Source: Odiellus spinosus (lineage: Eukaryota > Arthropoda > Arachnida > Opiliones > Phalangiidae). Taken from it: DNA of 64,000 nucleotides. Position 1 is the first letter of the stretch, and every line of letters begins with the position of its first letter. The DNA lies in assembly GCA_963920705.1 (NCBI GenBank), contig OY987230.1:1178001-1242000 (forward strand). The letters run 5' to 3'. Position numbers and translations under genes: made by a program. Positions 1 through 64,000 of the stretch are shown here, piece by piece. The notes beneath the pieces were generated by a model, which saw nothing but the letters and a program-made list of their open reading frames with translations, was not told the DNA's origin and did not search any database.

Positions 1-370
1 GAAAGACCAAATTTTGGTCTATCTAAAGAACAATAGTTTTGGAAAATCCGTTGAAAAACAAGAAAAATATGGCCAATTCTAGAAATCATACAATATCAAA
101 ATAGTCAAATTTCAGATTTTCAAAATTCGCTTTTTGATATTAGATGTTTTTTGAATTGTCCATATTTTCCATGTTTTTCAACGGATTTTTGAAAACTCTT
201 ATTATTTAAACTGTCCATTAATTGCTCTTTCGAATGACTTTGTTTTGTCTAAATTGCAAAATTGTGACAAATATAAAATTGGTTAAAATTAAGCAAAAAC
301 GCTTAAAAATCCAAGATTATTGGATTCAAATGGACACAAAACTTTTGATTTTTAAGCGATTTAGACAAAA

Positions 371-390
371 TTAAGACCAAATTTTGGTCT
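371..390 (+). repeat. 12-bp deletion in the S+ right arm
   Basis: Here AAGACC runs straight into AAATTTTGGTCT. Other units have AAGACCACTCGAAAGACC first. The missing 12 bp lie between two AGACC copies, as expected from slippage or recombination between short direct repeats. The surrounding S+ segment is otherwise normal. Confidence 0.8.
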
Positions 391-937
391 ATCTAAAAAA
401 CAAGAGTTTTGGAAAATCCGTTGAAAAACATGGAAAATATGGACAATTCAAAAAACATCTAATATCAAAAAGCGAATTTTGAAAATCTGAAATTTGACTA
501 TTTTGATATTCTATGATTTCTTGAATTGGCCATATTTTTCTTGTTTTTCAACGGATTTTTGAAAACTCTTATTATTTAGACTGTCCATTAATTGCTCTTT
601 CGAATGACTTTGGTTTTGTCTAAATTGCCAAAACGTGACAAATATAAAATTGGTTAAAATTAAGCAAAAACGCTTAAAAATCCAAGATTATTGGATTCAA
701 ATGGACACAAAACTTTTGAATTTTAAGCGATTTAGACAAAATTAAGACCACTCGAAAGACCAAATTTTGGTCTATCTAAAAAACAATAGTTTTGGAAAAT
801 CCGTTGAAAAACAAGAAAAATATGGCCAATTCTAGAAATCATACAATATCAAAATAGTCAAATTTCAGATTTTCAAAATTCGCTTTTTGATATTAGATGT
901 TTTTTGAATTGTCCATATTTTCCATTTTTTTCAACGG

Positions 938-1182
938 ATTTTCCAAAACTCTTGTTTTTTAGATAGAACAATATTTGCTCTTTCGAGTGGTCTTAATTTT
1001 GTCTAAATCGCTTAAAAATCAAAAGTTTTGTGTCCATTTGAATCCAATAATCTTGGATTTTTAAGCGTTTTTGCTTAATTTTAACCAATTTTATATTTGT
1101 CACAATTTTGCCATTTAGACAAAACAAAGTCATTCGAAAGAGCAATTAATGGACAGTTTAAATAATAAGAGTTTTCAAAAAT
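938..1182 (-). repeat. Spacer segment S, minus orientation (reference copy)
   Basis: This is the first reversed S in the window. It carries TTTTGTGTCCATTTGAATCC, the reverse complement of the marker in S+, between a C+ core ending at 937 and a C- core starting at 1183. Its length of 245 bp matches S+. The flanking cores are intact, so the junctions give no direct scar of the inversion. Confidence 0.9.
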
Positions 1183-4100
1183 CCGTTGAAAAACATGGAA
1201 AATATGGACAATTCAAAAAACATCTAATATCAAAAAGCGAATTTTGAAAATCTGAAATTTGACTATTTTGATATTCTATGATTTCTTGAATTGGCCATAT
1301 TTTTCTTGTTTTTCAACGGATTTTCCAAAACTATTGTTTTTTAGAAAGATTAAAATTTGGTCTTTCGAGTGGTCTTAATTTTGTCTAAATCGCTTAAAAT
1401 TCAAAAGTTTTGTGTCCATTTGAATCCAATAATCTTGGATTTTTAAGCGTTTTTGCTTAATTTTAACCAATTTTATATTTGTCACGTTTTGGCAATTTAG
1501 ACAAAACCAAAGTCATTCGAAAGAGCAATTTATGGACAGTCTAAATAATAAGAGTTTTCAAAAATCCGTTGAAAAACAAGAAAAATATGGCCAGTTCAAG
1601 AAATCATAGAATATCAAAATAGTCAAATTTCAGATTTTCAAAATTCGCTTTTTGATATTAGATGTTTTTTGAATTGTCCATATTTTCCATGTTTTTCAAC
1701 TGATTTTCCAAAACTCTTGTTTTTTAGATAGACCAAAATTTGGTCTTTCGAGTGGTCTTAATTTTGTCTAAATCGCTTAAAAATCAAAAGTTTTGTGTCC
1801 ATTTGAATCCAATAATCTTGGATTTTTAAGCGTTTTTGCTTAATTTTAACCAATTTTATATTTGTCACAATTTTGCAATTTAGACAAAACCAAAGTCATT
1901 CGAAAGAGCAATTAATGGACAGTCTAAATAATAAGAGTTTTCAAAAATCCGTTGAAAAACAAGAAAAATATGGCCAATTCAAGAAATCATAGAATATCAA
2001 AATAGTCAAATTTCAGATTTTCAAAATTCGCTTTTTGATATTAGATGTTTTTTGAATTGTCCATATTTTCCATGTTTTTCAACGGATTTTCCAAAACTCT
2101 TGTTTTTTAGATAGAGCAATATTTGCTCTTTCGAGTGGTCTTAATTTTGTCTAAATCGCTTAAAAATCAAAAGTTTTGTGTCCATTTGAATCCAATAATC
2201 TTGGATTTTTAAGCGTTTTTGCTTAATTTTAACCAATTTTATATTTGTCACAATTTTGCAATTTAGACAAAATCAAAGTCATTCGAAAGAGCAATTAATG
2301 GACAGTTTAAATAATAAGAGTTTTCAAAAATCCGTTGAAAAACATGGAAAATATGGACAATTCAAAAAACATCTAATATCAAAAAGCGAATTTTGAAAAT
2401 CTGAAATTTGACTATTTTGATATTCTATGATTTCTTGAATTGGCCATATTTTTTTTGTTTTTCAACGGATTTTTGAAAACTCTTATTATTTAGACTGTCC
2501 ATTAATTGCTCTTTAGAATGACTTTGGTTTTGTCTAAATTGCAAAATTGTGACAAATATAAAATTGGTTAAAATTAAGCAAAAACGCTTAAAAATCCAAG
2601 ATTATTGGATTCAAATGGACACAAAACTTTTGATTTTTAAGCGATTTAGACAAAATTAAGACCACTCGAAAGAGCAAATATTGCTCTATCTAAAAAACAA
2701 GAGTTTTGGAAAATCCGTTGAAAAACAAGAAAAATATGGCCAATTCAAGAAATCATACAATATCAAAATAGTCAAATTTCAGATTTTCAAAATTCGCTTT
2801 TTGATATTAGATGTTTTTTGAATTGTCCATATTTTCCTTGTTTTTCAACGGATTTTTGAAAACTCTTATTATTAAGACTATCCATTAATTGCTCTTTCGA
2901 ATGACTTTGTTTTTGTCTAAATTGCAAAATTGTGACAAATCTAAAATTGGTTAAAATTAAGCAAAACGCTTAAAAATCCAAGATTATTGGATTCAAATGG
3001 ACACAAAACTTTTGATTTTTAAGCGATTTAGACAAAATTAAGACCACTCGAAAGAGCAAATATTGGTCTATCTGAAAATCAAGAGTTTTGGAAAATCCGT
3101 TGAAAAACATGGAAAATATGGACAATTCATAAAACATCTAATATCAAAAAGCGAATTTTTAAAATCTGAAATTTGACTATTTTGATATTCTATGATTTCT
3201 TGAATTGGCCATATTTTTCTTGTTTTTCAACGGATTTTCCAAAACTATTGTTTTTTAGATAGACCAAAATTTGGTCTTTCGAGTGGTCTTAATTTTGTCT
3301 AAATCGCGTAAAATTCAAAAGTTTTGTGTCCATTTGAATCCAATAATCTTGGATTTTTAAGCGTTTTTGCTTAATTTTAACCAATTTTATATTTGTCACG
3401 TCTTGGCAATTTAGACAAAACCAAAGTCATTCGAAAGAGCAATTAATGGACAGTCTAAATAATAAGAGTTTTCAAAAATCCGTTGAAAAACAAGAAAAAT
3501 ATGGCCAATTCAAGAAATCATAGAATATCAAAATAGTCAAATTTCAGATTTTCAAAATTCGCTTTTTGATATTAGATGTTTTTTCAATTGTCCATATTTT
3601 CCATGTTTTTCAACGGATTTTTGAAAACTCTTATTATTTAAACTGTCCATTAATTGCTCTTTCGAATGACTTTGGTTTTGTCTAAATTGCAAAATTGTGA
3701 CAAATATAAAATTGGTTAAAATTAAGCAAAAACGCTTAAAAATCCAAGATTATTGGATTCAAATGGACACAAAACTTTTGATTTTTAAGCGATTTAGACA
3801 AAATTAAGACCACTCGAAAGAGCAAATATTGCTCTATTTAAAAAACAAGAGTTTTGGAAAATCCGTTGAAAAACATGGAAAATATGGACAATTCAAAAAA
3901 CATCTAATATCAAAAAGCGAATTTTGAAAATCTGAAATTTGACTATTTTGATATTCTATGATTTCTTGAATTGGCCATATTTTTCTTGTTTTTCAACGGA
4001 TTTTTGAAAACTCTTATTATTTAGACTGTCCATTAATTGCTCTTTCGAATGACTTTGGTTTTGTCTAAATTGCAAAATTGTGACAAATATAAAATTGGTT

Positions 4101-6500
4101 AAAATTAAGCAAAAACGCTTAAAAATCCAAGATTATTGGATTCAAATGGACACAAAACTTTTGATTTTTAAGCGATTATACAAAATTAAGACCACTCGAA
4201 AGAGCAAATATTGATCTATCTAAAAAACAAGAGTTTTGGAAAATCAGTTGAAAAACATGGAAAATATGGACAATTCAAAAAACATCTAATATCAAAAAGC
4301 GAATTTTGAAAATCTAAAATTTGACTATTTTGATATTCTATGATTTCTTGAATTGGCCATATTTTTCTTGTTTTTCAACGGATTTTTGAAAACTCTTATT
4401 ATTTAGACTGTCCATTAATTGCTCTTTCGAATGACTTTGGTTTTGTCTAAATTGCCAAAACGTGACAAATATAAAATTGGTTAAAATTAAGCAAAAACGC
4501 TTAAAAATCCAAGATTATTGGATTCAAATGGACACAAAACTTTTGAATTTTAAGCGATTTAGACAAAATTAAGACCACTCGAAAGACCAAATTTTGGTCT
4601 ATCTAAAAAACAATAGTTTTGGAAAATCCGTTGAAAAACAAGAAAAATATGGCCCATTCAAGAAATCATAGAATATCAAAATAGTCAAATTTCAGATTTT
4701 CAAAATTCGCTTTTTGATATTAGATGTTTTTTGAATTGTCCATATTTTCCATGTTTTTCAACGGATTTTTGAAAACTCTTATTATTTAAACTGTCCATTA
4801 ATTGCTCTTTCGAATTACTTTGGTTTTGTCTAAATTGCAAAATTGTGACAAATATAAAATTGGTTAAAATTAAGCAAAAACGCTTAAAAATTCAAGATTA
4901 TTGGATTCAAATGGACACAAAACTTTTGATTTTTAAGCGATTTAGACAAAATTAAGACCACTCGAAAGAGCAAATATTGCTCTATCTAAAAAACAAGAGT
5001 TTTGGAAAATCCGTTGAAAAACATGGAAAATATGGACAATTCAAAAAACATCTAATATCAAAAAGCGAATTTTGAAAATCTGAAATTTGACTATTTTGAT
5101 ATTCTATGATTTCTTGAATTGGCCATATTTTTCTTGTTTTTCAACGGATTTTTGAAAACTCTTATTATTTAGACTGTCCATTAATTGCTCTTTCGAATGA
5201 CTTTGGTTTTGTCTAAATTGCCAAAACGTGACAAATATAAAATTGGTTAAAATTAAGCAAAAACGCTTAAAAATCTAAGATTATTGGATTCAAATGGACA
5301 CAAAACTTTTGAATTTTAAGCGATTTAGACAAAATTAAGACCACTCGAAAGACCAAATTTTGGTCTATCTAAAAAACAATAGTTTTGGAAAATCCGTTGA
5401 AAAACAAGAAAAATATGGCCAATTCAAGAAATCATAGAATATCAAAATAGTCAAATTTCAGATTTTCAAAATTCGCTTTTTGATATTAGATGTTTTTTGA
5501 ATTGTCCATATTTTCCATGTTTTTCAACGGATTTTTGAAAACTCTTATTATTTAAACTGTCCATTAATTGCTCTTTCGAATTACTTTGGTTTTGTCTAAA
5601 TTGCAAAATTGTGACAAATATAAAATTGGTTAAAAATTAAGCAAAAACGCTTAAAAATCCAAGATTATTGGATTCAAATGGACACAAAACTTTTGATTTT
5701 TAAGCGATTTAGACAAAATTAAGACCACTCGAAAGAGCAAATATTGCTCTATCTAAAAAACAAGAGTTTTGGAAAATCCGTTGAAAAACATGGAAAATAT
5801 GGACAATTCAAAAAACATCTAATATCAAAAAGCGAATTTTGAAAATCTGAAATTTGACTATTTTGATATTGTATGATTTCTTGAATTGGCCATATTTTTC
5901 TTGTTTTTCAACGGATTTTTGAAAACTCTTATTATTTAGACTGTCCATTAATTGCTCTTTCGAATGACTTTGGTTTTGTCTAAATTGCCAAAACGTGACA
6001 AATATAAAATTGGTTAAAATTAAGCAAAAACGCTTAAAAATCTAAGATTATTGGATTCAAATGGACACAAAACTTTTGAATTTTAAGCGATTTAGACAAA
6101 ATTAAGACCACTCGAAAGACCAAATTTTGGTCTATCTAAAAAACAATAGTTTTGGAAAATCCGTTGAAAAACAAGAAAAATATGGCCAATTCAAGAAATC
6201 ATAGAATATCAAAATAGTCAAATTTCAGATTTTCAAAATTCGCTTTTTGATATTAGATGTTTTTTGAATTGTCCATATTTTCCATGTTTTTCAACGGATT
6301 TTTGAAAACTCTTATTATTTAAACTGTCCATTAATTGCTCTTTCGAATGACTTTGTTTTGTCTAAATTGCAAAATTGTGACAAATATAAAATTGGTTAAA
6401 AATTAAGCAAAAACGCTTAAAAATCCAAGATTATTGGATTCAAATGGACACAAAACTTTTGATTTTTAAGCGATTTAGACAAAATTAAGACCACTCGAAA

Positions 6501-6515: not shown

Positions 6516-6543
6516 TATCTAAAAAACAAGAGTTTTGGAAAAT

Positions 6544-6803: not shown

Positions 6804-6804
6804 A

Positions 6805-13410: not shown

Positions 13411-13480
13411 AAAAACAAGAGTTTTCAAAAACCGTTGAAAAACATGGAAAATATGGACAATTCAAGAAATCATAGAATAT
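13411..13480 (+). repeat. Chimeric S/C junction
   Basis: The right end of this S+ starts as the usual ATCTAAAAAACAAGAG and then continues TTTTCAAAAACCGTTG, which belongs to the other S arm. The core then reads ACATGGAAAATATGGAC followed by AATTCAAGAAATCATAG, joining the outer part of one core arm to the inner part of the other. The next S is reversed. It looks like the footprint of an exchange between the inverted arms. Confidence 0.75.
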
Positions 13481-14580
13481 CAAAATAGTCAAATTTCAGA
13501 TTTTCAAAATTCGCTTTTTGATATTAGATGTTTTTTGAATTGTCCATATTTTCCATGTTTTTCAACGGATTTTCCAAAACTCTTGATTTTCAGATAGACC
13601 AATATTTGCTCTTTCGAGTGGTCTTAATTTTGTCTAAATCGCTTAAAAAACAAAAGTTTTGTGTCCATTTGAATCCAATAATCTTGGATTTTTAAGCGTT
13701 TTTGCTTAATTTTAACCAATTTTATATTTGTCACAATTTTGCAATTTAGTCAAAAACAAAGTCATTCGAAAGAGCAATTAATGGACAGTCTTAAAAATAA
13801 GAGTTTTCAAAAATCCGTTGAAAAACAAGAAAAATATGGCCAATTCAAAAAACATCTAATATCAAAAAGCGAATTTTGAAAATCTGAAATTTGACTATTT
13901 TGATATTCTATGATTTCTTGAATTGTCCACATTTTTCTTGTTTTTCAACGGATTTTTGAAAACTCTTATTATTTAGACTGTCCATTAATTGCTCTTTCGA
14001 ATGACTTTGGTTTTGTCTAAATTGCAAAATTGTGACAAATATAAAATTGGTTAAAATTAAGCAAAAACGCTTAAAAATCCAAGACTATTGGATTCAAATG
14101 GACACAAAACTTTTGATTTTTAAGCGATTTAGACAAAATTAAGACCACTCGAAAAACCAAATTTTGGTCTATCTAAAAAACAAGAGTTTTGGAAAATCCG
14201 TTGAAAAACATGGAAAATATGGACAATTCAAAAAACATCTAATATCAAAAAGCGAATTTTGAAAATCTGAAATTTGACTATTTTGATATTCTATGATTTC
14301 TTGAATTGGCCATATTTTTCTTGTTTTTCAACGGATTTTTGAAAACTCTTATTATTTAGACTGTCCAATAATTGCTCTTTCGAATGACTTTGGTTTTGTC
14401 TAAATTGCCAAAACGTGACAAATATAAAATTGGTTAAAATTAAGCAAAAACGCTTAAAAATCCAAGATTATTGGATTCAAATGGACACAAAACTTTTGAA
14501 TTTTAAGCGATTTAGACAAAATTAAGACCACTCGAAAGACCAAATTTTGGTCTATCTAAAAAACAATAGTTTTGGAAAAT

Positions 14581-29127: not shown

Positions 29128-31808
29128 CCGTTGAAAAACATGGAAAATATGGACAATTCAAAAAACATCTAATATCAAAAAGCGAATTTTGAAAATCTGA
29201 AATTTGACTATTTTGATATTCTATGATTTCTTGAATTGGCCATATTTTTCTTGTTTTTCAACGGATTTTCCAAAACTATTGTTTTTTAGATAGACCAAAA
29301 TTTGGTCTTTCGAGTGGTCTTAATTTTGTCTAAATCGCTTAAAATTCAAAAGTTTTGTGTCCATTTGAATCCAATAATCTTGGATTTTTAAGCGTTTTTG
29401 CTTAATTTTAACCAATTTTATATTTGTCACAATTTTGCAATTTAGACAAAACCAAAGTCATTCGAAAGAGCAAATAATGGACAGTCTAAATAATAAGAGT
29501 TTTCAAAAATCCGTTGAAAAACAAGAAAAATATGGCCAATTCAAGAAATCATAGAATATCAAAATAGTCAAATTTCAGATTTTCAAAATTCGCTTTTTGA
29601 TATTAAATGTTTTTTGAATTGTCCATATTTTCCATGTTTTTCAACGGATTTTTGAAAACTCTTATTATTTAAACTGTCCATTAATTGCTCTTTCGAATGA
29701 CTTTGGTTTTGTCTAAATTGCAAAATTGTGACAAATATAAAATTGGTTAAAATTAAGCAAAAACGCTTAAAAATCCAAGATTATTGGATTCAAATGGACA
29801 CAAAACTTTTGATTTTTAAGCGATTTAGACAAAATTAAGACCACTCGAAAGACCAAATTTTGGTCTATCTAAAAAACAAGAGTTTTGGAAAATCCGTTGA
29901 AAAACATGGAAAATATGGACAATTCAAAAAACATCTAATATCAAATAGCGAATTTTGAAAATCTGAAATTTGACTATTTTGATATTCTATGATTTCTTGA
30001 AGTGGCCATATTTTCCATGTTTTTCAACGGATTTTTGAAAACTCTTATTATTTAAACTGTCCATTAATTGCTCTTTCGAATGACTTTGGTTTTGTCTAAA
30101 TTGCAAAATTGTGACAAATATAAAATTGGTTAAAATTAAGCAAAAACGCTTAAAAATCCAAGATTATTGGATTCAAATGGACACAAAACTTTTGAATTTT
30201 AAGCGATTTAGACAAAATTAAGACCACTCGAAAGACAAAATTTTGGTCTATCTAAAAAACAATAGTTTTGGAAAATCCGTTGAAAAACAAGAAAAATATG
30301 GCCAATTCAAGAAATCATAGAATATCAAAATAGTCAAATTTCAGATTGTCAAAATTCGCTTTTTGATATTAGATGTTTTTTGAATTGTCCATATTTTCCA
30401 TGTTTTTCAACGGATTTTCCAAAACTCTTGTTTTTTAGATAGACCAATATTTGCTCTTTCGAGTGGTCTTAATTTTGTCTAAATCGCTTAAAATTCAAAA
30501 GTTTTGTGTCCATTTGAATCCAATAATCTTGGATTTTTAAGCGTTTTTGCTTAATTTTAACCAATTTTATATTTGTCACAATTTTGCAATTTAGACAAAA
30601 CCAAAGTCATTCGAAAGAGCAATTAATGGACAGTCTAAATAATAAGTGTTTTCAAAAATCCGTTGAAAAACAAGAAAAATATGGCCAATTCAAGAAATCA
30701 TAGAATATCAAAATAGTCAAATTTCAGATTTTCAAAATTCGCTTTTTGATATTAGATGTTTTTTGAATTGTCCATATTTTCCATGTTTTTCAACGGATTT
30801 TCCAAAACTCTTGTTTTTTAGATAGACCAATATTTGCTCTTTCGAGTGGTCTTAATTTTGTCTAAATCGCTTAAAATTCAAAAGTTTTTTGTCCATTTGA
30901 ATCCAATAATCTTGGATTTTTAAGCGTTTTTTCTTAATTTTAACCAATTTTATATTTGTCACAATTTTGCAATTTAGACAAAACCAAAGTCATTCGAAAG
31001 AGCAATTAATGGACAGTCTAAATAATAAGTGTTTTCAAAAATCCGTTGAAAAACAAGAAAAATATGGCCAATTCAAGAAATCATAGAATATCAAAATAGT
31101 CAAATTTCAGATTTTTAAAATTCGCTTTTTGATTTTAGATGTTTTTTGAATTGTCCATATTTTCCATGTTTTTCAACTGATTTTCCAAAACTCTTGTTTT
31201 TTAGATAGATCAATATTTGCTCTTTCGAGTGGTCTTAATTTTGTTTAAATCGCTTAAAAATCAAAAGTTTTGTGTCCATTTGAATCCAATAATCTTGGAT
31301 TTTTAAGCGTTTTTGCTTAATTTTAACCAATTTTATATTTGTCACAATTTTGCAATTTAGACAAAACCAAAGTCATTCGAAAGAGCAATTAATGGACAGT
31401 TTAAATAATAAGAGTTTTCAAAAATCCGTTGAAAAACATGGAAAATATGGACAATTCAAAAAACATCTAATATCAAAAAGCGAATTTTGAAAATCTGAAA
31501 TATGACTATTTTGATATTCTATGATTTCTTGAATTGGCCATATTTTCCATGTTTTTCAACGGATTTTTGAAAACTCTTATTATTTAAACTGTCCATTAAT
31601 TGCTCTTTCGAATGACTTTGGTTTTGTCTAAATTGCAAAATTGTGACAAATATAAAATTGGTTAAAATTAAGCAAAAACGCTTAAAAATCCAAGATTATT
31701 GGATTCAAATGGACACAAAACTTTTGAATTTTAAGCGATTTAGACAAAATTAAGACCACTCGAAAGACCAAATTTTGGTCTATCTAAAAAACAATAGTTT
31801 TGGAAAAT
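29128..31808. repeat. Mixed-orientation block 3
   Basis: The order is C- S- C+ S+ C- S+ C+ S- C+ S- C+ S- C- S+. Two C- cores (right arms near 30000-30030 and 31536-31562) end in CCATATTTTCCATG instead of CCATATTTTTCTTG, so both of their outer arms are of one type. The marker AAGTTTTTTGTCC at 30882 recurs in the next block at 33562 and 35433. Confidence 0.84.
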
Positions 31809-34105: not shown

Positions 34106-36315
34106 CCGTTGAAAAACATGGAAAATATGGACAATTCAAAAAACATCTAATATCAAAAAGCGAATTTTGAAAATCTGAAATTTGACTATTTTGATATTGT
34201 ATGATTTCTTGAATTGGCCATATTTTTCTTGTTTTTCAACGGATTTTCCAAAACTATTGTTTTTTAGATAGACCAAATTTTGGTCTTTCGAGTGGTCTTA
34301 ATTTTGTCTAAATCGCTTAAAATTCAAAAGTTTTGTGTCCATTTGAATTCAATAAACTTTTGAATTTTAAGCGATTTAGACAAAATTAAGACCACTCGAA
34401 AGACCAAATTTTGGTCTATCTAAAAAACAATAGTTTTGGAAAATCCGTTGAAAAACAAGAAAAATATGGCCAATTCAAGAAATCATACAATATCAAAATA
34501 GTCAAATTTCAGATTTTCAAAATTCGCTTTTTGATATTAGATGTTTTTTGAATTGTCCATATTTTCCATGTTTTTCAACGGATTTTCCAAAACTCTTGTT
34601 TTTTAGATAGACCAATATTTGCTCTTTCGAGTGGTCTTAATTTTGTCTAAATCGCTTAAAATTCAAAAGTTTTGTGTCCATTTGAATCCAATAATCTTGG
34701 ATTTTTAAGCGTTTTTGCTTAATTTTAACCAATTTTATATTTGTCACAATTTTGCAATTTAGACAAAACCAAAGTCATTCGAAAGAGCAATTAATGGACA
34801 GTCTAAATAATAAGTGTTTTCAAAAATCCGTTGAAAAACAAGAAAAATATGGCCAATTCAAGAAATCATAGAATATCAAAATAGTCAAATTTCAGATTTT
34901 CAAAATTCGCTTTTTGATATTAGATGTTTTTTGAATTGTCCATATTTTCCATGTTTTTCAACTGATTTTCCAAAACTCTTGTTTTTTAGATAGATCAATA
35001 TTTGCTCTTTCGAGTGGTCTTAATTTTGTCTAAATCGCTTAAAATTCAAAAGTTTTGTGTCCATTTGAATCCAATAATCTTGGATTTTTAAGCGTTTTTG
35101 CTTAATTTTAACCAATTTTATATTTGTCACAATTTTGCAATTTAGACAAAACCAAAGTCATTCGAAAGAGCAATTAATGGACAGTCTAAATAATAAGTGT
35201 TTTCAAAAATCCGTTGAAAAACAAGAAAAATATGGCCAATTCAAGAAATCATAGAATATCAAAATAGTCAAATTTCAGATTTTCAAAATTCGCTTTTTGA
35301 TATTAGATGTTTTTTGAATTGTCCATATTTTCCATGTTTTTCAACGGATTTTCCAAAACTCTTGTTTTTTAGATAGACCAATATTTGCTCTTTCGAGTGG
35401 TCTTAATTTTGTCTAAATCGCTTAAAATTCAAAAGTTTTTTGTCCATTTGAATCCAATAATCTTGGATTTTTAAGCGTTTTTTCTTAATTTTAACCAATT
35501 TTATATTTGTCACAATTTTGCAATTTAGACAAAACCAAAGTCATTCGAAAGAGCAATTAATGGACAGTCTAAATAATAAGTGTTTTCAAAAATCCGTTGA
35601 AAAACAAGAAAAATATGGCCAATTCAAGAAATCATAGAATATCAAAATAGTCAAATTTCAGATTTTCAAAATTCGCTTTTTGATATTAGATGTTTTTTGA
35701 ATTGTCCATATTTTCCATGTTTTTCAACTGATTTTCCAAAACTCTTGTTTTTTAGATAGATCAATATTTGCTCTTTCGAGTGGTCTTAATTTTGTTTAAA
35801 TCGCTTAAAAATCAAAAGTTTTGTGTCCATTTGAATCCAATAATCTTGGATTTTTAAGCGTTTTTGCTTAATTTTAACCAATTTTATATTTGTCACAATT
35901 TTGCAATTTAGACAAAACCAAAGTCATTCGAAAGAGCAATTAATGGACAGTTTAAATAATAAGAGTTTTCAAAAATCCGTTGAAAAACATGGAAAATATG
36001 GACAATTCAAAAAACATCTAATATCAAAAAGCGAATTTTGAAAATCTGAAATTTGACTATTTTGATATTGTATGATTTCTTGAATTGGCCATATTTTTCT
36101 TGTTTTTCAACGGATTTTCCAAAACTATTGTTTTTTAGATAGACCAAAATTTGGTCTTTCGAGTGGTCTTAATTTTGTCTAAATCGCTTAAAATTCAAAA
36201 GTTTTGTGTCCATTTGAATTCAATAAACTTTTGAATTTTAAGCGATTTAGACAAAATTAAGACCACTCGAAAGACCAAATTTTGGTCTATCTAAAAAACA
36301 ATAGTTTTGGAAAAT
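32575..36315. repeat. Higher-order repeat of 1871 bp containing the fold-back unit, two copies
   Basis: The copies are 32575-34444 and 34445-36315. The fold-back junction recurs at 34345 and 36216, 1871 bp apart, and AAGTTTTTTGTCC recurs with the same spacing. Five units would give 1915 bp; the 44-bp shortfall is the truncation of one S. A partial relative lies near 30.66-31.42 kb, without the fold-back. Confidence 0.8.
34101..34586. repeat. Fold-back unit, 230-bp inverted repeat (copy 1)
   Basis: The left arm 34101-34330 and right arm 34357-34586 are reverse complements apart from one T-T position (34278 and 34409). The spacer is 26 bp. The S segment here (34243-34444) is only 202 bp. It begins as S-, runs to GAATTCAATAA, and then continues as the right end of S+. 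The SB-type arm and the hairpin-bearing centre are missing. Symmetry stops where the left side reads TTTTCAAAAATCC and the right GGATTTTCCAAAAC. Confidence 0.88.
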
Positions 36316-36617
36316 CCGTTGAAAAACAAGAAAAATATGGCCAATTCAAGAAATCATACAATATCAAAATAGTCAAATTTCAGATTTTCAAAATTCGCTT
36401 TTTGATATTAGATGTTTTTTGAATTGTCCATATTTTCCATGTTTTTCAACGGATTTTTGAAAACTCTTATTATTTAAACTGTCCATTAATTGCTCTTTCG
36501 AATGACTTTGGTTTTGTCTAAATTGCAAAATTGTGACAAATATAAAATTGGTTAAAATTAAGCAAAAACGCTTAAAAATCCAAGATTATTGGATTCAAAT
36601 GGACACAAAACTTTTGA
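35812..36617. repeat. Fold-back unit, perfect 390-bp inverted repeat (copy 2)
   Basis: The arms 35812-36201 and 36228-36617 match base for base as reverse complements over 390 bp, by reading both fully. The spacer is 26 bp. The shortened S hybrid is 36114-36315 (202 bp) with the same junction GAATTCAATAAAC as copy 1. The left arm covers S-, C- and half the hybrid; the right covers the other half, C+ and S+. The first mismatch is at 35811/36618. Such a sequence could extrude as a cruciform or fold as long hairpin RNA if transcribed; neither is shown. Confidence 0.92.
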
Positions 36618-39600
36618 ATTTTAAGCGATTTAGACAAAATTAAGACCACTCGAAAGACCAAATTTTGGTCTATCTAAAAAACAATAGTTTTGGAAAATCC
36701 GTTGAAAAACAAGAAAAATATGGCCAATTCAAGAAATCATACAATATCAAAATAGTCAAATTTCAGATTTTCAAAATTCGCTTTTTGATATTAGATGTTT
36801 TTTGAATTGTCCATATTTTCCATGTTTTTCAACGGATTTTTGAAAACTCTTATTATTTAAACTCTCCATTAATTGCTCTTTCGAATGACTTTGGTTTTGT
36901 CTAAATTGCAAAATTGTGACAAATATAAAATTGGTTAAAATTAAGCAAAAACGCTTAAAAATCCAAGATTATTGGATTCAAATGGACACAAAACTTTTGA
37001 ATTTTAAGCGATTTAGACAAAATTAAGACCACTCGAAAGACCAAATTTTGGTCTATCTAAAAAACAATAGTTTTGGAAAATCCGTTGAAAAACAAGAAAA
37101 ATATGGCCAATTCAAGAAATCATACAATATCAAAATAGTCAAATTTCAGATTTTCAAAATTCGCTTTTTGATATTAGATGTTTTTTGAATTGTCCATATT
37201 TTCCATGTTTTTCAACGGATTTTTGAAAACTCTTATTATTTAAACTGTCCATTAATTGCTCTTTCGAATGACTTTGGTTTTGTCTAAATTGCAAAATTGT
37301 GACAAATATAAAATTGGTTAAAATTAAGCAAAAACGCTTAAAAATCCAAGATTATTGGATTCAAATGGACACAAAACTTTTGATTTTTAAGCGATTTAGA
37401 CAAAATTAAGACCACTCGAAAGACCAAATTTTGGTCTATCTAAAAAACAATAGTTTTGGAAAATCCGTTGAAAAACAAGAAAAATATGGCCAATTCTAGA
37501 AATCATACAATATCAAAATAGTCAAATTTCAGATTTTAAAAATTCGCTTTTTGATATTAGATGTTTTTTGAATTGTCCATATTTTCCATGTTTTTCAACA
37601 GATTTTCCAAATCTCTTGTTTTTTAGATAGAGCAATATTTGCTCTTTCGAGTGGTCTTAATTTTGTCTAAATCGCTTAAAAATCAAAAGTTTTGTGTCCA
37701 TTTGAATCCAATAATCTTGGATTTTTAAGTGTTTTTGCTTAATTTTAACCAATTTTATATTTGTCACAATTTTGCAATTTAGACAAAACCAAAGTCATTC
37801 GAAATAGCAATTAATGGACAGTTTAAATAATAAGAGTTTTCAAAAATCCGTTGAAAAACATGGAAAATATGGACAATTCAAAAAACATCTAATATCAAAA
37901 AGCGAATTTTGAAAATCTGAAATTTGACTATTTTGATATTCTATGATTTCTTGATTTGGCCATATTTTTCTTGTTTTTCAACGGATTTTTGAAAACTCTT
38001 ATTATTTAGACTGTCCATTAATTGCTCTTTCGAATGACTTTGGTTTTGTCTAAATTGCAAAATTGTGACAAATATAAAATTGGTTAAAATTAAGCAAAAA
38101 CGCTTAAAAATCCAAGATTATTGGATTCAAATGGACACAAAACTTTTGAATTTTAAGCGATTTAGACAAAATTAAGACCACTCGAAAGACCAAATTTTGG
38201 TCTATCTAAAAAACAATAGTTTTGGAAAATCCGTTGAAAAACAAGAAAAATATGGCCAATTCAAGAAATCATACAATATCAAAACAGTCAAATTTCAGAT
38301 TTTCAAAATTCGCTTTTTGATATTAGATGTTTTTTGAATTGTCCATATTTTCCATGTTTTTCAACGGATTTTTGAAAACTCTTATTATTTAAACTGTCCA
38401 TTAATTGCTCTTTCGAATGACTTTGGTTTTGTCTAAATTGCAAAATTGTGACAAATATAAAATTGGTTAAAATTAAGCAAAAACGCTTAAAAATCCAAGA
38501 TTATTGGATTCAAATGGACACAAAACTTTTGAATTTTAAGCGATTTAGACAAAATTAAGACCACTCGAAAGACCAAATTTTGGTCTATCTAAAAAACAAT
38601 AGTTTTGGAAAATCCGTTGAAAAACAAGAAAAATATGGCCAATTCAAGAAATCATACAATATCAAAATAGTCAAATTTCAGATTTTCAAAATTCGCTTTT
38701 TGATATTAGATGTTTTTTGAATTGTCCATATTTTCCATGTTTTTCAACGGATTTTTGAAAACTCTTATTATTTAAACTCTCCATTAATTGCTCTTTCGAA
38801 TGACTTTGGTTTTGTCTAAATTGCAAAATTGTGACAAATATAAAATTGGTTAAAATTAAGCAAAAACGCTTAAAAATCCAAGATTATTGGATTCAAATGG
38901 ACACAAAACTTTTGAATTTTAAGCGATTTAGACAAAATTAAGACCACTCGAAAGACCAAATTTTGGTCTATCTAAAAAACAATAGTTTTGGAAAATCCGT
39001 TGAAAAACAAGAAAAATATGGCCAATTCAAGAAATCATACAATATCAAAATAGTCAAATTTCAGATTTTCAAAATTCGCTTTTTGATATTAGATGTTTTT
39101 TGAATTGTCCATATTTTCCATGTTTTTCAACGAATTTTTGAAAACTCTTATTATTTAAACTGTCCATTAATTTCTCTTTCGAATGACTTTGGTTTTGTCT
39201 AAATTGCAAAATTGTGACAAATATAAAATTGGTTAAAATTAAGAAAAAACGCTTAAAAATCCAAGATTATTGGATTCAAATGGACACAAAACTTTTGATT
39301 TTTAAGCGATTTAGACAAAATTAAGACCACTCGAAAGAGCAAATATTGCTCTATCTAAAAAACAAGAGTTTTGGAAAATCCGTTGAAAAACATGGAAAAT
39401 ATGGACAATTCAAAAAACATCTAATATCAAAAAGCGAATTTTGAAAATCTGAAATTTGACTATTTTGATATTCTATGATTTCTTGAATTGGCCATATTTT
39501 TCTTGTTTTTCAACGGATTTTTGAAAACTCTTATTATTTAGACTGTCCATTAATTGCTCTTTCGAATGACTTTGGTTTTGTCTAAATTGCAAAATTGTGA

Positions 39601-44200: not shown

Positions 44201-46750
44201 TTTTGTGTCCATTTGAATCCAATAATCTTGGATTTTTAAGCGTTTTTGCTTAATTTTAACCAATTTTATATTTGTCACAATTTTGCAATTTAGACAAAAC
44301 CAAAGTCATTCGAAAGAGCAATTAATGGACAGTCTAAATAATAAGAGTTTTCAAAAATCCGTTGAAAAACAAGAAAAATATGGCCAATTCAAGAAATCAT
44401 AGAATATCAAAATAGTCAAATTTCAGATTTTCAAAATTCGCTTTTTGATATTAGATGTTTTTTGAATTGTCCATATTTTCCATGTTTTTCAACGGATTTT
44501 TGAAAACTCTTATTATTTAAACTGTCCATTAATTGCTCTTTCGAATGACTTTGGTTTTGTCTAAATTGCAAAATTGTGACAAATATAAAATTGGTTAAAA
44601 TAAAGCAAAAACGCTTAAAAATCCAAGATTATTGGATTCAAATGGACACAAAACTTTTGATTTTTAAGCGATTTAGACAAAATTAAGACCACTCGAAAGA
44701 GCAAATATTGGTCTATCTGAAAATCAAGAGTTTTGGAAAATCCGTTGAAAAACATGGAAAATATGGACAATTCAAAAAACATCTAATATCAAAAAGCGAA
44801 TTTTTAAAATCTGAAATTTGACTATTTTGATATTCTATGATTTCTAGAATTGGCCATATTTTTCTTGTTTTTCAACGGATTTTTGAAAACTCTTATTATT
44901 TAGACTGTCCATTAATTGCTCTTTCGAATGACTTTGGTTTTGTCTAAATTGCAAAATTGTGACAAATATAAAATTGGTTAAAATTAAGCAAAAACGCTTA
45001 AAAATCCAAGATTATTGGATTCAAATGGACACAAAACTTTTGAATTTTAAGCGATTTAGACAAAATTAAGACCACTCGAAAGACCAAATTTTGGTCTATC
45101 TAAAATACAATAGTTTTGGAAAATCCGTTGAAAAACAAGAAAAATATGGCCAATTCAAGAAATCATACAATATCAAAATAGTCAAATTTCAGATTTTAAA
45201 AATTCGCTTTTTGATATTAGATGTTTTTTGAATTGTCCATATTTTCCATGTTTTTCAACGGATTTTCCAAAACTCTTGTTTTTTAGATAGACCAATATTT
45301 GCTCTTTCGAGTGGTCTTAATTTTGTCTAAATCGCTTAAAATTCAAAAGTTTTGTGTCCATTTGAATCCAATAATCTCTGATTTTTAAGCGTTTTTGCTT
45401 AATTTTAACCAATTTTATGTTTGTCACAATTTTGCAATTTAGACAAAACCAAAGTCATTCGAAAGAGCAATTAATGGACAGTCTAAATAATAAGAGTTTT
45501 CAAAAATCCGTTGAAAAACAAGAAAAATGTGGACAATTCAAGAAATCATAGAATATCAAAATAGTCAAATTTCAGATTTTCAAAATTCGCTTTTTGATAT
45601 TAGATGTTTTTTGAATTGGCCATATTTTTCTTGTTTTTCAACGGATTTTTGAAAACTCTTATTATTAAGACTGTCCATTAATTGCTCTTTCGAATGACTT
45701 TGTTTTTGTCTAAATTGCAAAATTGTGACAAATATAAAATTGGTTAAAATTAAGCAAAAACGCTTAAAAATCCAAGATTATTGGATTCAAATGGACACAA
45801 AACTTTTGATTTTTAAGCGATTTAGACAAAATTAAGACCACTCGAAAGAGCAAATATTGGTCTATCTGAAAATCAAGAGTTTTGGAAAATCCGTTGAAAA
45901 ACATGGAAAATATGGACAATTCAAAAAACATCTAATATCAAAAAGCGAATTTTGAAAATCTGAAATTTGACTATTTTGATATTCTATGATTTCTTGAATT
46001 GGCCATATTTTTCTTGTTTTTCAACGGATTTTCCAAAACTATTGTTTTTTAGATAGACCAAAATTTGGTCTTTCGAGTGGTCTTAATTTTGTCTAAATCG
46101 CTTAAAATTCAAAAGTTTTGTGTCCATTTGAATCCAATAATCTTGGATTTTTAAGCGTTTTTGCTTAATTTTAACCAATTTTATATTTGTCACAATTTTG
46201 CAATTTAGACAAAACCAAAGTCATTCGAAAGAGCAATTAATGGACAGTCTAAATAATAAGAGTTTTCAAAAATCCGTTGAAAAACAAGAAAAATATGGCC
46301 AATTCAAGAAATCATAGAATATCAAAATAGTCAAATTTCAGATTTTCAAAATTCGCTTTTTGATATTAGATGTTTTTTGAATTGTCCATATTTTCCATGT
46401 TTTTCAACGGATTTTTGAAAACTCTTATTATTTAAACTGTCCATTAATTGCTCTTTCGAATGACTTTGGTTTTGTCTAAATTGCAAAATTGTGACAAATA
46501 TAAAATTGGTTAAAATAAAGCAAAAACGCTTAAAAATCCAAGATTATTGGATTCAAATGGACACAAAACTTTTGATTTTTAAGCGATTTAGACAAAATTA
46601 AGACCACTCGAAAGAGCAAATATTGGTCTATCTGAAAATCAAGAGTTTTGGAAAATCCGTTGAAAAACATGGAAAATATGGACAATTCAAAAAACATCTA
46701 ATATCAAAAAGCGAATTTTTAAAATCTGAAATTTGACTATTTTGATATTG
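41271..46750. repeat. Five-unit higher-order repeat of 1915 bp
   Basis: ATAATCTCTG is at 41541, 43456 and 45371, exactly 1915 bp apart. TCTAAAATACAATAG at 41270, 43185 and 45100 keeps the same spacing. The order per copy is C+ S- C+ S+ C- S- C+ S+ C- S+. The first two copies look identical; the third departs after its last C- core, where an S- replaces the S+ and the four-unit pattern starts. Confidence 0.86.
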
Positions 46751-49700
46751 TATGATTTCTAGAATTGGCCATATTTTTCTTGTTTTTCAACGGATTTTCC
46801 AAAACTCTTGTTTTTTAGATAGACCAATATTTGTTCTTTCGAGTGGTCTTAATTTTGTCTAAATCGCTTAAAATTCAAAAGTTTTGTGTCCATTTGAATC
46901 CAATAATCTCTGATTTTTAAGCGTTTTTGCTTAATTTTAACCAATTTTATGTTTGTCACAATTTTGCAATTTAGACAAAACCAAAGTCATTCGAAAGAGC
47001 AATTAATGGACAGTCTAAATAATAAGAGTTTTCAAAAATCCGTTGAAAAACAAGAAAAATGTGGACAATTCAAGAAATCATAGAATATCAAAATAGTCAA
47101 ATTTCAGATTTTCAAAATTCGCTTTTTGATATTAGATGTTTTTTGAATTGGCCATATTTTTCTTGTTTTTCAACGGATTTTTGAAAACTCTTATTATTAA
47201 GACTGTCCATTAATTGCTCTTTCGAATGACTTTGTTTTTGTCTAAATTGCAAAATTGTGACAAATATAAAATTGGTTAAAATTAAGCAAAAACGCTTAAA
47301 AATCCAAGATTATTGGATTCAAATGGACACAAAACTTTTGATTTTTAAGCGATTTAGACAAAATTAAGACCACTCGAAAGAGCAAATATTGGTCTATCTG
47401 AAAATCAAGAGTTTTGGAAAATCCGTTGAAAAACATGGAAAATATGGACAATTCAAAAAACATCTAATATCAAAAAGCGAATTTTGAAAATCTGAAATTT
47501 GACTATTTTGATATTCTATGATTTCTTGAATTGGCCATATTTTTCTTGTTTTTCAACGGATTTTCCAAAACTATTGTTTTTTAGATAGACCAAAATTTGG
47601 TCTTTCGAGTGGTCTTAATTTTGTCTAAATCGCTTAAAATTCAAAAGTTTTGTGTCCATTTGAATCCAATAATCTTGGATTTTTAAGCGTTTTTGCTTAA
47701 TTTTAACCAATTTTATATTTGTCACAATTTTGCAATTTAGACAAAACCAAAGTCATTCGAAAGAGCAATTAATGGACAGTCTAAATAATAAGAGTTTTCA
47801 AAAATCCGTTGAAAAACAAGAAAAATATGGCCAATTCAAGAAATCATAGAATATCAAAATAGTCAAATTTCAGATTTTCAAAATTCGCTTTTTGATATTA
47901 GATGTTTTTTGAATTGTCCATATTTTCCATGTTTTTCAACGGATTTTTGAAAACTCTTATTATTTAAACTGTCCATTAATTGCTCTTTCGAATGACTTTG
48001 GTTTTGTCTAAATTGCAAAATTGTGACAAATATAAAATTGGTTAAAATAAAGCAAAAACGCTTAAAAATCCAAGATTATTGGATTCAAATGGACACAAAA
48101 CTTTTGATTTTTAAGCGATTTAGACAAAATTAAGACCACTCGAAAGAGCAAATATTGGTCTATCTGAAAATCAAGAGTTTTGGAAAATCCGTTGAAAAAC
48201 ATGGAAAATATGGACAATTCAAAAAACATCTAATATCAAAAAGCGAATTTTTAAAATCTGAAATTTGACTATTTTGATATTGTATGATTTCTAGAATTGG
48301 CCATATTTTTCTTGTTTTTCAACGGATTTTCCAAAACTCTTGTTTTTTAGATAGACCAATATTTGTTCTTTCGAGTGGTCTTAATTTTGTCTAAATCGCT
48401 TAAAATTCAAAAGTTTTGTGTCCATTTGAATCCAATAATCTCTGATTTTTAAGCGTTTTTGCTTAATTTTAACCAATTTTATGTTTGTCACAATTTTGCA
48501 ATTTAGACAAAACCAAAGTCATTCGAAAGAGCAATTAATGGACAGTCTAAATAATAAGAGTTTTCAAAAATCCGTTGAAAAACAAGAAAAATGTGGACAA
48601 TTCAAGAAATCATAGAATATCAAAATAGTCAAATTTCAGATTTTCAAAATTCGCTTTTTGATATTAGATGTTTTTTGAATTGGCCATATTTTTCTTGTTT
48701 TTCAACGGATTTTTGAAAACTCTTATTATTAAGACTGTCCATTAATTGCTCTTTCGAATGACTTTGTTTTTGTCTAAATTGTAAAATTGTGACAAATATA
48801 AAATTGGTTAAAATTAAGCAAAAACGCTTAAAAATCCAAGATTATTGGATTCAAATGGACACAAAACTTTTGATTTTTAAGCGATTTAGACAAAATTAAG
48901 ACCACTCGAAAGAGCAAATATTGGTCTATCTGAAAATCAAGAGTTTTGGAAAATCCGTTGAAAAACATGGAAAATATGGACAATTCAAAAAACATCTAAT
49001 ATCAAAAAGCGAATTTTGAAAATCTGAAATTTGACTATTTTGATATTCTATGATTTCTTGAATTGGCCATATTTTTCTTGTTTTTCAACGGATTTTCCAA
49101 AACTATTGTTTTTTAGATAGACCAAAATTTGGTCTTTCGAGTGGTCTTAATTTTGTCTAAATCGCTTAAAATTCAAAAGTTTTGTGTCCATTTGAATCCA
49201 ATAATCTTGGATTTTTAAGCGTTTTTGCTTAATTTTAACCAATTTTATATTTGTCACAATTTTGCAATTTAGACAAAACCAAAGTCATTCGAAAGAGCAA
49301 TTAATGGACAGTCTAAATAATAAGAGTTTTCAAAAATCCGTTGAAAAACAAGAAAAATATGGCCAATTCAAGAAATCATAGAATATCAAAATAGTCAAAT
49401 TTCAGATTTTCAAAATTCGCTTTTTGATATTAGATGTTTTTTGAATTGTCCATATTTTCCATGTTTTTCAACGGATTTTTGAAAACTCTTATTATTTAAA
49501 CTGTCCATTAATTGCTCTTTCGAATGACTTTGGTTTTGTCTAAATTGCAAAATTGTGACAAATATAAAATTGGTTAAAATAAAGCAAAAACGCTTAAAAA
49601 TCCAAGATTATTGGATTCAAATGGACACAAAACTTTTGATTTTTAAGCGATTTAGACAAAATTAAGACCACTCGAAAGAGCAAATATTGGTCTATCTGAA

Positions 49701-56130: not shown

Positions 56131-58144
56131 CCAATTTTATATTTGTCACAATTTTGCAATTTAGACAAAACCAAAGTCATTCTAAAGAGCAATTAATGGA
56201 CAGTCTAAATAATAAGAGTTTTCAAAAATCCGTTGAAAAACAAGAAAAATACGGCCAATTCAAGAAATCATAGAATATCAAAATAGTCAAATTTCAGATT
56301 TTCAAAATTCGCTTTTTGATATTAGATGTTTTTTGAATTGTCCATATTTTCCATGTTTTTCAACGGATTTTTGAAAACTCTTATTATTAAGACTGTCCAT
56401 AAATTGCTCTTTCGAATGACTTTGTTTTTGTCTAAATTGCAAAATTGTGACAAATATAAAATTGGTTAAAATTAAGCAAAAACGCTTAAAAATCCAAGAT
56501 TATTGGATTCAAATGGACACAAAACTTTTGAATTTTAAGCGATTTAGACAACATTAAGACCACTCGAAAGAGCAAATATTGGTCTATCTGAAAATCAAGA
56601 GTTTTGGAAAATCCGTTGAAAAACATGGAAAATATGGACAATTCAAAAAACATCTAATATCAAAAAGCGAATTTTTAAAATCTGAAATTTGACTATTTTG
56701 ATATTGTATGATTTCTAGAATTGGCCATATTTTTCTTGTTTTTCAACGGATTTTCCAAAACTATTGTTTTTTAGATAGACCAAAATTTGGTCTTTCGAGT
56801 GGTCTTAATTTTGTCTAAATCGCTTAAAATTCAAAAGTTTTGTGTCCATTTGAATCCAATAATCTAGGATTTTTAAGCGTTTTTGCTTAATTTTAACCAA
56901 TTTTATATTTGTCACAATTTTGCAATTTAGACAAAAACAAAGTCATTCGAAAGAGCAATTAATGGACAGTCTTAATAATAAGAGTTTTCAAAAATCCGTT
57001 GAAAAACAAGAAAAATATGGCCAATTCAAAAAACATCTAATATCAAAAAGCGAATTTTGAAAATCTGAAATTTGACTATTTTGATATTCTATGATTTCTT
57101 GAATTGTCCACATTTTTCTTGTTTTTCAACGGATTTTTGAAAACTCTTATTATTTAGACTGTCCATTAATTGCTCTTTCGAATGACTTTGGTTTTGTCTA
57201 AATTGCAAAATTGTGACAAATATAAAATTGGTTAAAATTAAGCAAAAACGCTTAAAAATCCAAGATTATTGGATTCAAATGGACACAAAACTTTTGAATT
57301 TTAAGCGATTTAGACAAAATTAAGACCACTCGAAAGAGCAAATATTGGTCTATCTAAAAAACAAGAGTTTTGGAAAATCCGTTGAAAAACATGGAAAATA
57401 TGGACAATTCAAAAAATATCTAATATCAAAAAGCGAATTTTTAAAATCTGAAATTTGACTATTTTGATATTGTATGATTTCTTGAATTGGCCATATTTTT
57501 CTTGTTTTTCAACGGATTTTCCAAAACTATTGTTTTTTAGATAGACCAAAATTTGGTCTTTCGAGTGGTCTTAATTTTGTCTAAATCGCTTAAAATTCAA
57601 AAGTTTTGTGTCCATTTGAATCCAATAATCTTGGATTTTTAAGCGTTTTTGCTTAATTTTAACCAATTTTATATTTGTCACAATTTTGCAATTTAGACAA
57701 AACCAAAGTCATTCGAAAGAGCAATTAATGGACAGTCTAAATAATAAGAGTTTTCAAAAATCCGTTGAAAAACAAGAAAAATATGGCCAATTCAAGAAAT
57801 CATAGAATATCAAAATAGTCAAATTTCAGATTTTCAAAATTCGCTTTTTGATATTAGATGTTTTTTGAATTGTCCATATTTTCCATGTTTTTCAACGGAT
57901 TTTTGAAAACTCTTATTATTTAGACTGTCCATTAATTGCTCTTTCGAATGACTTTGTTTTTGTCTAAATTGCAAAATTGTGACAAATATAAAATTGGTTA
58001 AAATTAAGCAAAAACGCTTAAAAATCCAAGATTAATGGATTCAAATGGACACAAAACTTTTGAATTTTAAGCGATTTAGACAAAATTAAGACCACTCGAA
58101 AGACCAAATTTTGGTCTATCTAAAAAACAAAGGTTTTGGAAAAT

Positions 58145-61100: not shown

Positions 61101-64000
61101 GGATTCAAATGGACACAAAACTTTTGATTTTTAAGTGATTTAGACAAAATTAAGACCACTCGAAAGAGCAAATATTGGTCTATCTGAAAATCAAGAGTTT
61201 TGGAAAATCCGTTGAAAAACATGGAAAATATGGACAATTCAAAAAACATCTAATATCAAAAAGCGAATTTTTAAAATCTGAAATTTGACTATTTTGATAT
61301 TGTATGATTTCTAGAATTGGCCATATTTTTCTTGTTTTTAAACGGATTTTCCAAAACTATTGTTTTTTAGATAGACCAAAATTTGGTCTTTCGAGTGGTC
61401 TTAATTTTGTCTAAATCGCTTAAAATTCAAAAGTTTTGTGTCCATTTGAATCCAATAATCTTGGATTTTTAAGCGTTTTTGCTTAATTTTAACCAATTTT
61501 ATATTTGTCACGTTTTGGCAATTTAGACAAAACCAAAGTCATTCGAAAGAGCAATTAATGGACAGTCTAAATAATAAGAGTTTTCAAAAATCCGTTGAAA
61601 AACAAGAAAAATATGGCCAATTCAAGAAATCATAGAATATCAAAATAGTCAAATTTCAGATTTTCAAAATTCGCTTTTTGATATTAGATGTTTTTTGAAT
61701 TGTCCATATTTTCCATGTTTTTCAACGGATTTTCCAAAACTCTTGTTTTTTTAGATAGACCAAAATTTGGTCTTTCGAGTGGTCTTAATTTTGTCTAAAT
61801 CGCTTAAAAATCAAAAGTTTTGTGTCCATTTGAATCCAATAATCTTGGATTTTTAAGCGTTTTTGCTTAATTTTAACCAATTTTATATTTGTCACAATTT
61901 TGCAATTTAGACAAAACAAAGTCATTCGAAAGAGCAATTAATGGACAGTTTAAATAATAAGAGTTTTCAAAAATCCGTTGAAAAACAAGAAAAATATGGC
62001 CAATTCAAGAAATCATAGAATATCAAAATAGTCAAATTTCAGATTTTCAAAATTCGCTTTTTGATTTTAGATGTTTTTTGAATTGTCCATATTTTCCATG
62101 TTTTTCAACGGATTTTTGAAAACTCTTATTATTTAAACTGTCCATTAATTGCTCTTTCGAATGACTTTGGTTTTGTCTAAATTGCAAAATTGTGACAAAT
62201 ATAAAATTGGTTAAAATAAAGCAAAAACGCTTAAAAATCCAAGATTATTGGATTCAAATGGACACAAAACTTTTGATTTTTAAGCGATTTAGACAAAATT
62301 AAGACCACTCGAAAGAGCAAATATTGGTCTATCTGAAAATCAAGAGTTTTGGAAAATCCGTTGAAAAACATGGAAAATATGGACAATTCAAAAAACATCT
62401 AATATCAAAAAGCGAATTTTTAAAATCTGAAATTTGACTATTTTGATATTGTATGATTTCTAGAATTGGCCATATTTTTCTTGTTTTTCAACGGATTTTC
62501 CAAAACTATTGTTCTTTAGATAGACCAAAATTTGGTCTTTCGAGTGGTCTTAATTTTGTCTAAATCGCTTAAAATTCAAAAGTTTTGTGTCCATTTGAAT
62601 CCAATAATCTTGGATTTTTAAGCGTTTTTGCTTAATTTTAACCAATTTTATATTTGTCACGTTTTGGCAATTTAGACAAAACCAAAGTCATTCGAAAGAG
62701 CAATTAATGGACAGTCTAAATAATAAGAGTTTTCAAAAATCTGTTGAAAAACAAGAAAAATATGGCCAATTCAAGAAATCATAGAATATCAAAATAGTCA
62801 AATTTCAGATTTTCAAAATTCGCTTTTTGATATTAGATGTTTTTTGAATTGTCCATATTTTCCATGTTTTTCAACGGATTTTCCAAAACTCTTGTTTTTA
62901 AGATAGACCAAAATTAGGTCTTTCGAGTGGTCTTAATTTTGTCTAAATCGCTTAAAAATCAAAAGTTTTGTGTCCATTTGAATCCAATAATCTTGGATTT
63001 TTAAGCGTTTTTGCTTAATTTTAACCAATTTTATATTTGTCACAATTTTGCAATTTAGACAAAACAAAGTCATTCGAAAGAGCAATTAATGGACAGTTTA
63101 AATAATAAGAGTTTTCAAAAATCCGTTGAAAAACATGGAAAATATGGACAATTCAAAAAACATCTAATATCAAAAAGCGAATTTTTAAAATCTGAAATTT
63201 GACTATTTTGATATTGTATGATTTCTAGAATTGGCCATATTTTTCTTGTTTTTCAACGGATTTTCCAAAACTATTGTTTTTTAGATAGACCAAAATTTGG
63301 TCTTTCGAGTGGTCTTAATTTTGTCCAAATCGCTTAAAATTCAAAAGTTTTGTGTCCATTTGAATCCAATAATCTTGGATTTTTAAGCGTTTTTGCTTAA
63401 TTTTAACCAATTTTATATTTGTCACAATTTTGCAATTTAGACAAAACCAAAGTCATTCGAAAGAGCAATTAATGGACAGTCTAAATAATAAGAGTTTTCA
63501 AAAATCCGTTGAAAAACAAGAAAAATATGGCCAATTCAAGAAATCATAGAATATCAAAATAGTCAAATTTCAGATTTTCAAAATTCGCTTTTTGATATTA
63601 GATGTTTTTTGAATTGTCCATATTTTCCATGTTTTTCAACGGATTTTCCAAAACTCTTGTTTTTTTAGATAGACCAAAATTTGGTCTTTCGAGTGGTCTT
63701 AATTTTGTCTAAATCGCTTAAAAATCAAAAGTTTTGTGTCCATTTGAATCCAATAATCTTGGATTTTTAAGCGTTTTTGCTTAATTTTAACCAATTTTAT
63801 ATTTGTCACAATTTTGCAATTTAGACAAAACAAAGTCATTCGAAAGAGCAATTAATGGACAGTTTAAATAATAAGAGTTTTCAAAAATCCGTTGAAAAAC
63901 AAGAAAAATATGGCCAATTCAAGAAATCATAGAATATCAAAATAGTCAAATTTCAGATTTTCAAAATTCGCTTTTTGATTTTAGATGTTTTTTGAATTGT
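58145..64000. repeat. S- rich terminal block
   Basis: S- segments outnumber S+ here. Beyond 62.4 kb the trimer pattern ends and the S segments near 62610, 62990, 63380 and 63760 all read -. The window stops inside a C+ core, so the array continues beyond 64000. Confidence 0.84.
58915..62490. repeat. Trimer higher-order repeat of 1149 bp
   Basis: The order is C- S- C+ S- C+ S+. CTCTTGTTTTTTTAG is at 59442, 60591 and 61740, exactly 1149 bp apart, with a related copy at 62889. GTCCAAATCGC is at 59111 and 60260 but is GTCTAAATCGC in the third copy, which also has the CACGTTTTGGC allele. The variant TTGATTTTAGATG in one C+ core travels with the period. Confidence 0.84.

Follow-up and report, generated by a model that had tools for sequence, protein, structure and literature searches.

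The 64,000 bp of Odiellus spinosus DNA analysed here (positions 1-64000, hereafter the window) belong to one satellite array of eukaryotic type, in which two modules that are each an imperfect palindrome, C and S, alternate, are joined by an 18-bp box and occur in both orientations. Single-base variants of S are linked to the adjoining C arm across the box, oriented blocks of several units recur as direct copies, and one exchange at the box and one fold-back product can be traced to their positions. The pattern is probably the outcome of a few founding rearrangements at the box, followed by ordinary homologous exchange that copied and shuffled the resulting junction types. The evidence base is 64 kb of one array.

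The array fills the window with a period of 383 bp and 167.4 copies (TRF), as a long head-to-tail series of one unit of the kind that defines satellite DNA. It is AT-rich (26-27% G+C), contains no N and extends beyond the window on both sides, the window holding nothing but array. The box, AAAATCCGTTGAAAAACA, occurs 335 times in the 64 kb at no more than two mismatches, against 0.15 copies expected, and 294 of the 335 copies carry no mismatch at all. In the box scan of the window the first copy lies at 43-60 on the + strand, and from there the strand alternates strictly over all 335 copies, with one box at each C/S junction; a shufflon likewise has short sites at its segment borders that switch strand from one to the next. 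Modules were defined as the stretches between boxes, taken by turns as C (143 bp including its box ends) and S (240 bp), which gives 167 C+S pairs of about 383 bp each and partial modules, cut at the box, at both window ends. In the first cut 164 C measured 143 bp and three measured 144 bp, and one false long pair was discarded. The two-segment satellite of about 383 bp described in the original prediction is therefore present; the split into 137 and 246 bp was right as to two modules and their total and has been recut as 143 and 240 bp, and since the box is the same at both module ends the two splits differ only inside the box. Selection on the box was considered as a candidate and dropped: diversity is 0.015 in the C ends, which consist of box bases, and 0.016 inside C, so that the box gives no sign of special conservation.

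Each module has inverted ends of its own, as had been predicted. Identity to the module's own reverse complement is 81% for C and, in a gapped alignment, 63% for S. The hairpin potential of both, computed for one copy each as single strand, is far above that of shuffled sequence (z = -11.9 for C, z = -8.1 for S), and hairpins may form in vivo. By strand scoring, examples of 143-bp C modules lie at 1946-2088 (+ strand) and 415-557 (- strand), and examples of 240-bp S modules at 558-797 (+ strand) and 2089-2328 (- strand). The 167 copies of each module comprise 92 distinct S and 58 distinct C sequences, the most widely shared C sequence being carried by 52 of the 167 C. Two variants stand apart in structure. 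The S at 188-414 is 227 bp long, 13 bp shorter than the other S, with a gap near its right end, between short GACCA repeats as judged by eye. Five linked changes mark a C haplotype found at 13812-13954 and in 11 other C modules, in which the 29/115 arm pair is swapped and the outer right arm is of left-arm type; copies of it in the two orientations lie at distant places in the array.

The two-way orientation of both modules is confirmed. Every module was scored against both strands, and the call is clear for all 167 C (identity margin at least 0.13, best identity at least 0.958). For S the margin falls below 0.2 in three of 167 rows, namely the two 196-bp palindromes discussed below and the last S, which was scored before the window end was trimmed off; the totals list all three as -. 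All four combinations occur, as the original prediction had it: 64 pairs are C+S+, 43 C-S+, 30 C+S- and 30 C-S- (n = 167). Because three of the 92 distinct S sequences and three of the 58 distinct C sequences are present, base for base, in both orientations, and common variants are shared across orientations as well, the inverted copies do not form an old separate lineage. The further claim that C and S orientations are independent holds within a pair (C_i against S_i, Fisher p = 0.26) but fails for S and the C that follows it (S_i against C_i+1, p = 4e-6); with the 241 unique junction contexts the two values are 0.44 and 0.0097. A runs test indicates more alternation than expected by chance for C (z = +6.0) and gives z = -0.3 for S, the orientation of S has a lag-2 autocorrelation of 0.50, and the two C flanking an S are of opposite orientation in 120 of 166 cases. 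The A+T skew along the window turns negative at about 31-36 kb (30001-37000), where most S are - oriented.

This orientation pattern is partly accounted for by copying, in that the orientation strings have largely been propagated as direct multi-unit blocks. With a limit of two mismatches per module, direct oriented runs of at least four, six and eight modules cover 258, 211 and 148 of the 334 modules, against 26, 0 and 0 for inverted runs, the longest of which comprises five modules (no more than two mismatches each) and about 0.9 kb. A five-unit higher-order repeat runs from S107 to C117 (41052-44881), where 20 modules match the copy five units further on with one mismatch in total, and a four-unit repeat from S118 to C126 (45265-48328), where 16 modules and their copy four units on differ by two mismatches in total. 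A three-unit repeat is found at C154 to C157 (58908-60199; seven modules against the copy three units on, no mismatch) and a two-unit repeat at C026 to C031 (9986-12041; 11 modules against the copy two units on, two mismatches in total). Blocks of two, three, four and five units are thus more alike than single units, as in other higher-order repeats, and the match of the array to itself is 71.8% at a shift of 766 bp against 69.0% at 383 bp.

A constraint on how the orientations arose comes from variants on the two sides of the box. C arms were typed by the diagnostic bases of C itself (columns 17/19 and 125/127), and, counting from the right, S column 233 is the 11th base of S, 26 bases away from the first diagnostic C base. 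T at this column stands beside a left-type C arm 71 times and never beside a right-type arm, while G stands beside a right-type arm 92 times and beside a left-type arm three times, and the single A is beside a left-type arm. Column 233 in this way predicts the C arm in 163 of 167 cases, compared with a maximum of 105 and a mean of 84 over 166 rotations of the labels. Counted by distinct S sequence, the pairing is 54 G with right, 35 T with left, two G with left and one A with left. Variants at S columns 224 and 229 are likewise found only with right-type arms (34 and 32 cases, none with left-type arms). T is probably the derived state, to judge from the mirror arm of S, which carries the counterpart of G. 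On the left side of S the linkage is weaker: column 23 agrees with the C arm in 147 of 164 cases, and two of the rows on this side, S089 and S094, in reality bear an S right end there. The 17 exceptions mean that boxes do recombine at times, and they weigh somewhat against a history of a few founding events only. Four junction classes are present, each made up mostly of one or a few sequences. Had the ends been flipped frequently, the S variants would be blind to the C arm beside them; the linkage that is seen leaves frequent flipping unsupported.

Individual events were sought as pairs of copies that agree to the left and to the right of a point where one of them has gained or lost a unit. 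Of 32 such traces, 17 are listed as distinct; 16 of these 17 have a junction of parental type and one has a new type. In the latter, S107-C117 matches S112-C122 over 20 modules and S118 onwards matches S122 onwards over 16 modules, the comparison leaving S117+C118 (44882-45264), exactly 383 bp, as an extra unit that is absent between C122 and S122. The new junction is C122+S122 (46654-47036), where a C left arm stands beside an S right end with the putatively ancestral G. A left-type C arm beside such an end places the switch in the short interval around the box, and the copies involved are close throughout: S116/S121 and C119/C123 are identical, and C117/C122 and S118/S122 are one base apart each. 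Here, differently oriented modules were brought together when a unit was gained or lost between two boxes on one strand, and no inversion has to be assumed.

A different kind of event is recorded in the two short S modules. S089 (34246-34441) is a nearly perfect palindrome of 196 bp in which the right half of S occurs twice, once in each direction, and S094 (36117-36312), five units further on, is its copy with one base different; S089 and S094 are a fold-back product that was then copied once with a five-unit block. In addition, one outer arm has the type of the opposite arm in 17 of 167 C (14 left-left and three right-right, among the latter C035 at 13429-13571 on the + strand, whose left outer arm is by arm typing of right-arm type), and two of 167 are untypable. 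Arms therefore do exchange at times, within or between C.

The inverted arms had been put forward as the route by which each module flips, repeatedly and separately from its neighbour, through exchange or fold-back between its own ends. Several observations are in keeping with such flipping, namely the palindromic structure of both modules with identical box ends, the presence of all four combinations with C_i and S_i unassociated, and the arm-exchange products in 17 of 167 C; together with the fold-back palindromes these bear out that part of the proposal which has the arms exchanging. Recurrent flips are another matter, given the linkage of S variants to the C arm across the box (163 of 167), the association of S_i with C_i+1, the direct copied blocks and the simulations described below, in which frequent events at the box fail to reproduce the data. 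Moreover, among 3487 pairs of near-identical but oppositely oriented C, not one has matching S on both sides. Of 482 oppositely oriented S pairs with two differences or fewer, 112 have matching C on both sides, and in 148 both neighbours fit an inverted context; as 52 of 167 C are identical, the flanking C say little about flips of S. The 112 pairs and the sequences identical across orientations would be expected from recurrent flips of S too, and in this respect they count against the founder reading. On balance, separate recurrent flipping of each module is unlikely.

How rare events at the box may be was approached by forward simulation of 167 units subject to direct and inverted exchange of whole modules and to a share f of box-level events, half of them in-place flips of odd blocks and half exchanges between boxes on the same strand, lumped together. 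For each f, 60 runs were made, each until the T variant had reached 43%. Runs without any T beside a right arm numbered 47 of 60 at f 0.003, 27 of 60 at 0.01 and six of 60 at 0.03, and none of 60 at either 0.1 or 0.3. Under this model events at the box would make up a few percent of all events at most, a bound that is only rough because the rates and step lengths were our own choice. Linkage across the box and simulation alike thus speak against the frequent inversion at fixed sites that characterizes a shufflon.

The course of events that we favour would run as follows. The rearrangements would start with rare events within the box, either recombination or template switching: exchange between boxes on opposite strands would invert the stretch between them, and exchange between boxes on the same strand would add or remove whole units and join modules of different orientation. 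A few such founding events could have given rise to the four junction types, CR-SL, CL-SR, CL-SL and CR-SR. Exchange between directly oriented copies would then multiply oriented blocks into higher-order repeats. Where two whole copies of a neighbouring module lie inverted to each other, such as the two C in C- S C+, exchange between them could turn over the S in the middle and leave the junctions unchanged. As these two C are inverted copies of 143 bp, flips of S would need no arms of S.

Three further explanations were weighed. Wrongly oriented joins of reads could in principle have created the flips during assembly, and the original prediction named flips confined to assembly joins as the finding that would overturn it. 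The window contains no N, orientation switches at most of the 333 junctions and always at the box, and oriented blocks recur with private variants, orientation being tied to single-base variants; misjoins would not produce recurring oriented blocks and variant linkage of this kind, and an assembly artefact is extremely improbable. Selection for hairpins or dyads, for example in centromere identity, may be thought to keep inverted neighbours together and so to set the orientation pattern. It would fit the strong hairpin potential of C and S, the opposite C flanking S in 120 of 166 cases and the proposal that macro-dyads matter in Tribolium, as put forward in the passages of PMC13081366 that deal with them. 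Copied blocks, however, also yield an excess of opposite flanks, and selection of this sort deserves little credence; junction and orientation frequencies were presumably set by exchange.

A dedicated recombinase or a transposase-like (CENP-B-like) protein acting at the box in the manner of a bacterial shufflon would account for a short identical site on alternating strands at every junction, the layout that an invertible system needs. Against it, box events appear rare, the box is no more conserved than the C interior, homology alone would be enough, and no match to the CENP-B core with up to two mismatches lies at the box. An enzyme of this kind is highly improbable.

The CENP-B search was prompted by a resemblance of the box by eye. 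The core of the CENP-B box is TTCGNNNNANNCGGG, and among the 108 matches listed for the window none has zero or one mismatch and none is at the box. The two-mismatch matches fall almost all at one place in S, as TTCGAATGACTTTGG-like words in its left arm (e.g., 599-613), and number 108 against 50 expected in shuffles; they were judged not to be a box, and a CENP-B box satellite was rejected. No Rfam family reached its gathering score over the window, so that a hammerhead ribozyme satellite is not indicated either. Five matches to miRNA precursors in 1-6000 are weak and far below gathering scores, as A+T-rich hairpins are expected to give. Collections of bacterial/archaeal and viral contigs, searched with one 28-base pattern, gave no exact match, and literature searches with 12- to 16-base words of the array returned unrelated papers only.

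What such an array offers is a visible mark on each module, its orientation, that outlasts homogenisation. Together with single-base variants beside the box, it allows founding rearrangements to be separated from later copying within a satellite, and it bounds the contribution of inversion relative to that of ordinary exchange, which is usually hidden in head-to-tail arrays. A mixed orientation string should not be taken as a tally of flips: much of the one here is copied, and opposite modules can also be joined, with no inversion, when a unit is gained or lost at the box. A bolder possibility, to which we give a very low probability, is that breaks fall preferentially in the 18-bp box because a cellular protein binds or cuts it, and that the satellite evolves as a slow shufflon; if so, modules would stay intact and be reshuffled in order and direction at fixed sites.

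As to published systems, the literature search found no satellite with a 383-bp monomer and inversion, and among the matches listed no flip-oriented satellite of this kind beyond that of PMC13081366, subscription papers being mostly outside its scope. A 385-bp satellite of Trichogramma brassicae, close in unit length to the 383 bp found here, has inverted repeats of 80 bp (Landais et al. 2000, as cited); the likeness is in the published description, and the variable orientation seen in the present array is not mentioned in the citing passages. In the 72-bp satellite of Palorus subdepressus, short motifs alternate with inverted-repeat units, and there are dimeric higher-order repeats (PMC8122249); our array shares this alternation as well as the higher-order repeats; the Palorus unit is far shorter, and the passage concerned does not mention module flips. 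In Tribolium brevicornis a 1061-bp satellite has long inversely oriented subunits of about 470 bp (Mravinac et al. 2005, as cited in PMC13081366 and PMC8122249), which by the citing accounts are fixed within the monomer, whereas here orientation varies between units. Closest in kind among the systems known in print are the Tribolium macro-dyad satellites. According to the passages that describe them, TmSat1 and TmSat2 of Tribolium madens change monomer orientation at inversion sites that are conserved and recur in many places, and they have long inverted repeats within the monomer (arms of about 300 bp in TmSat2) and predicted hairpins (PMC13081366). Orientation changes, inverted repeats and predicted hairpins are features of the present array too, as are recurrent conserved inversion sites, here in the form of the four junction classes. 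In those accounts the inverted stretches of TmSat1 and TmSat2 measure several kb and number mostly two per array (PMC13081366), while the longest inverted run in our 64-kb window is only the 0.9 kb given above. Compared by description, the changes here concern individual modules (143 and 240 bp), an 18-bp box standing at every junction, and inversion is finer-grained than in the Tribolium macro-dyad satellites.
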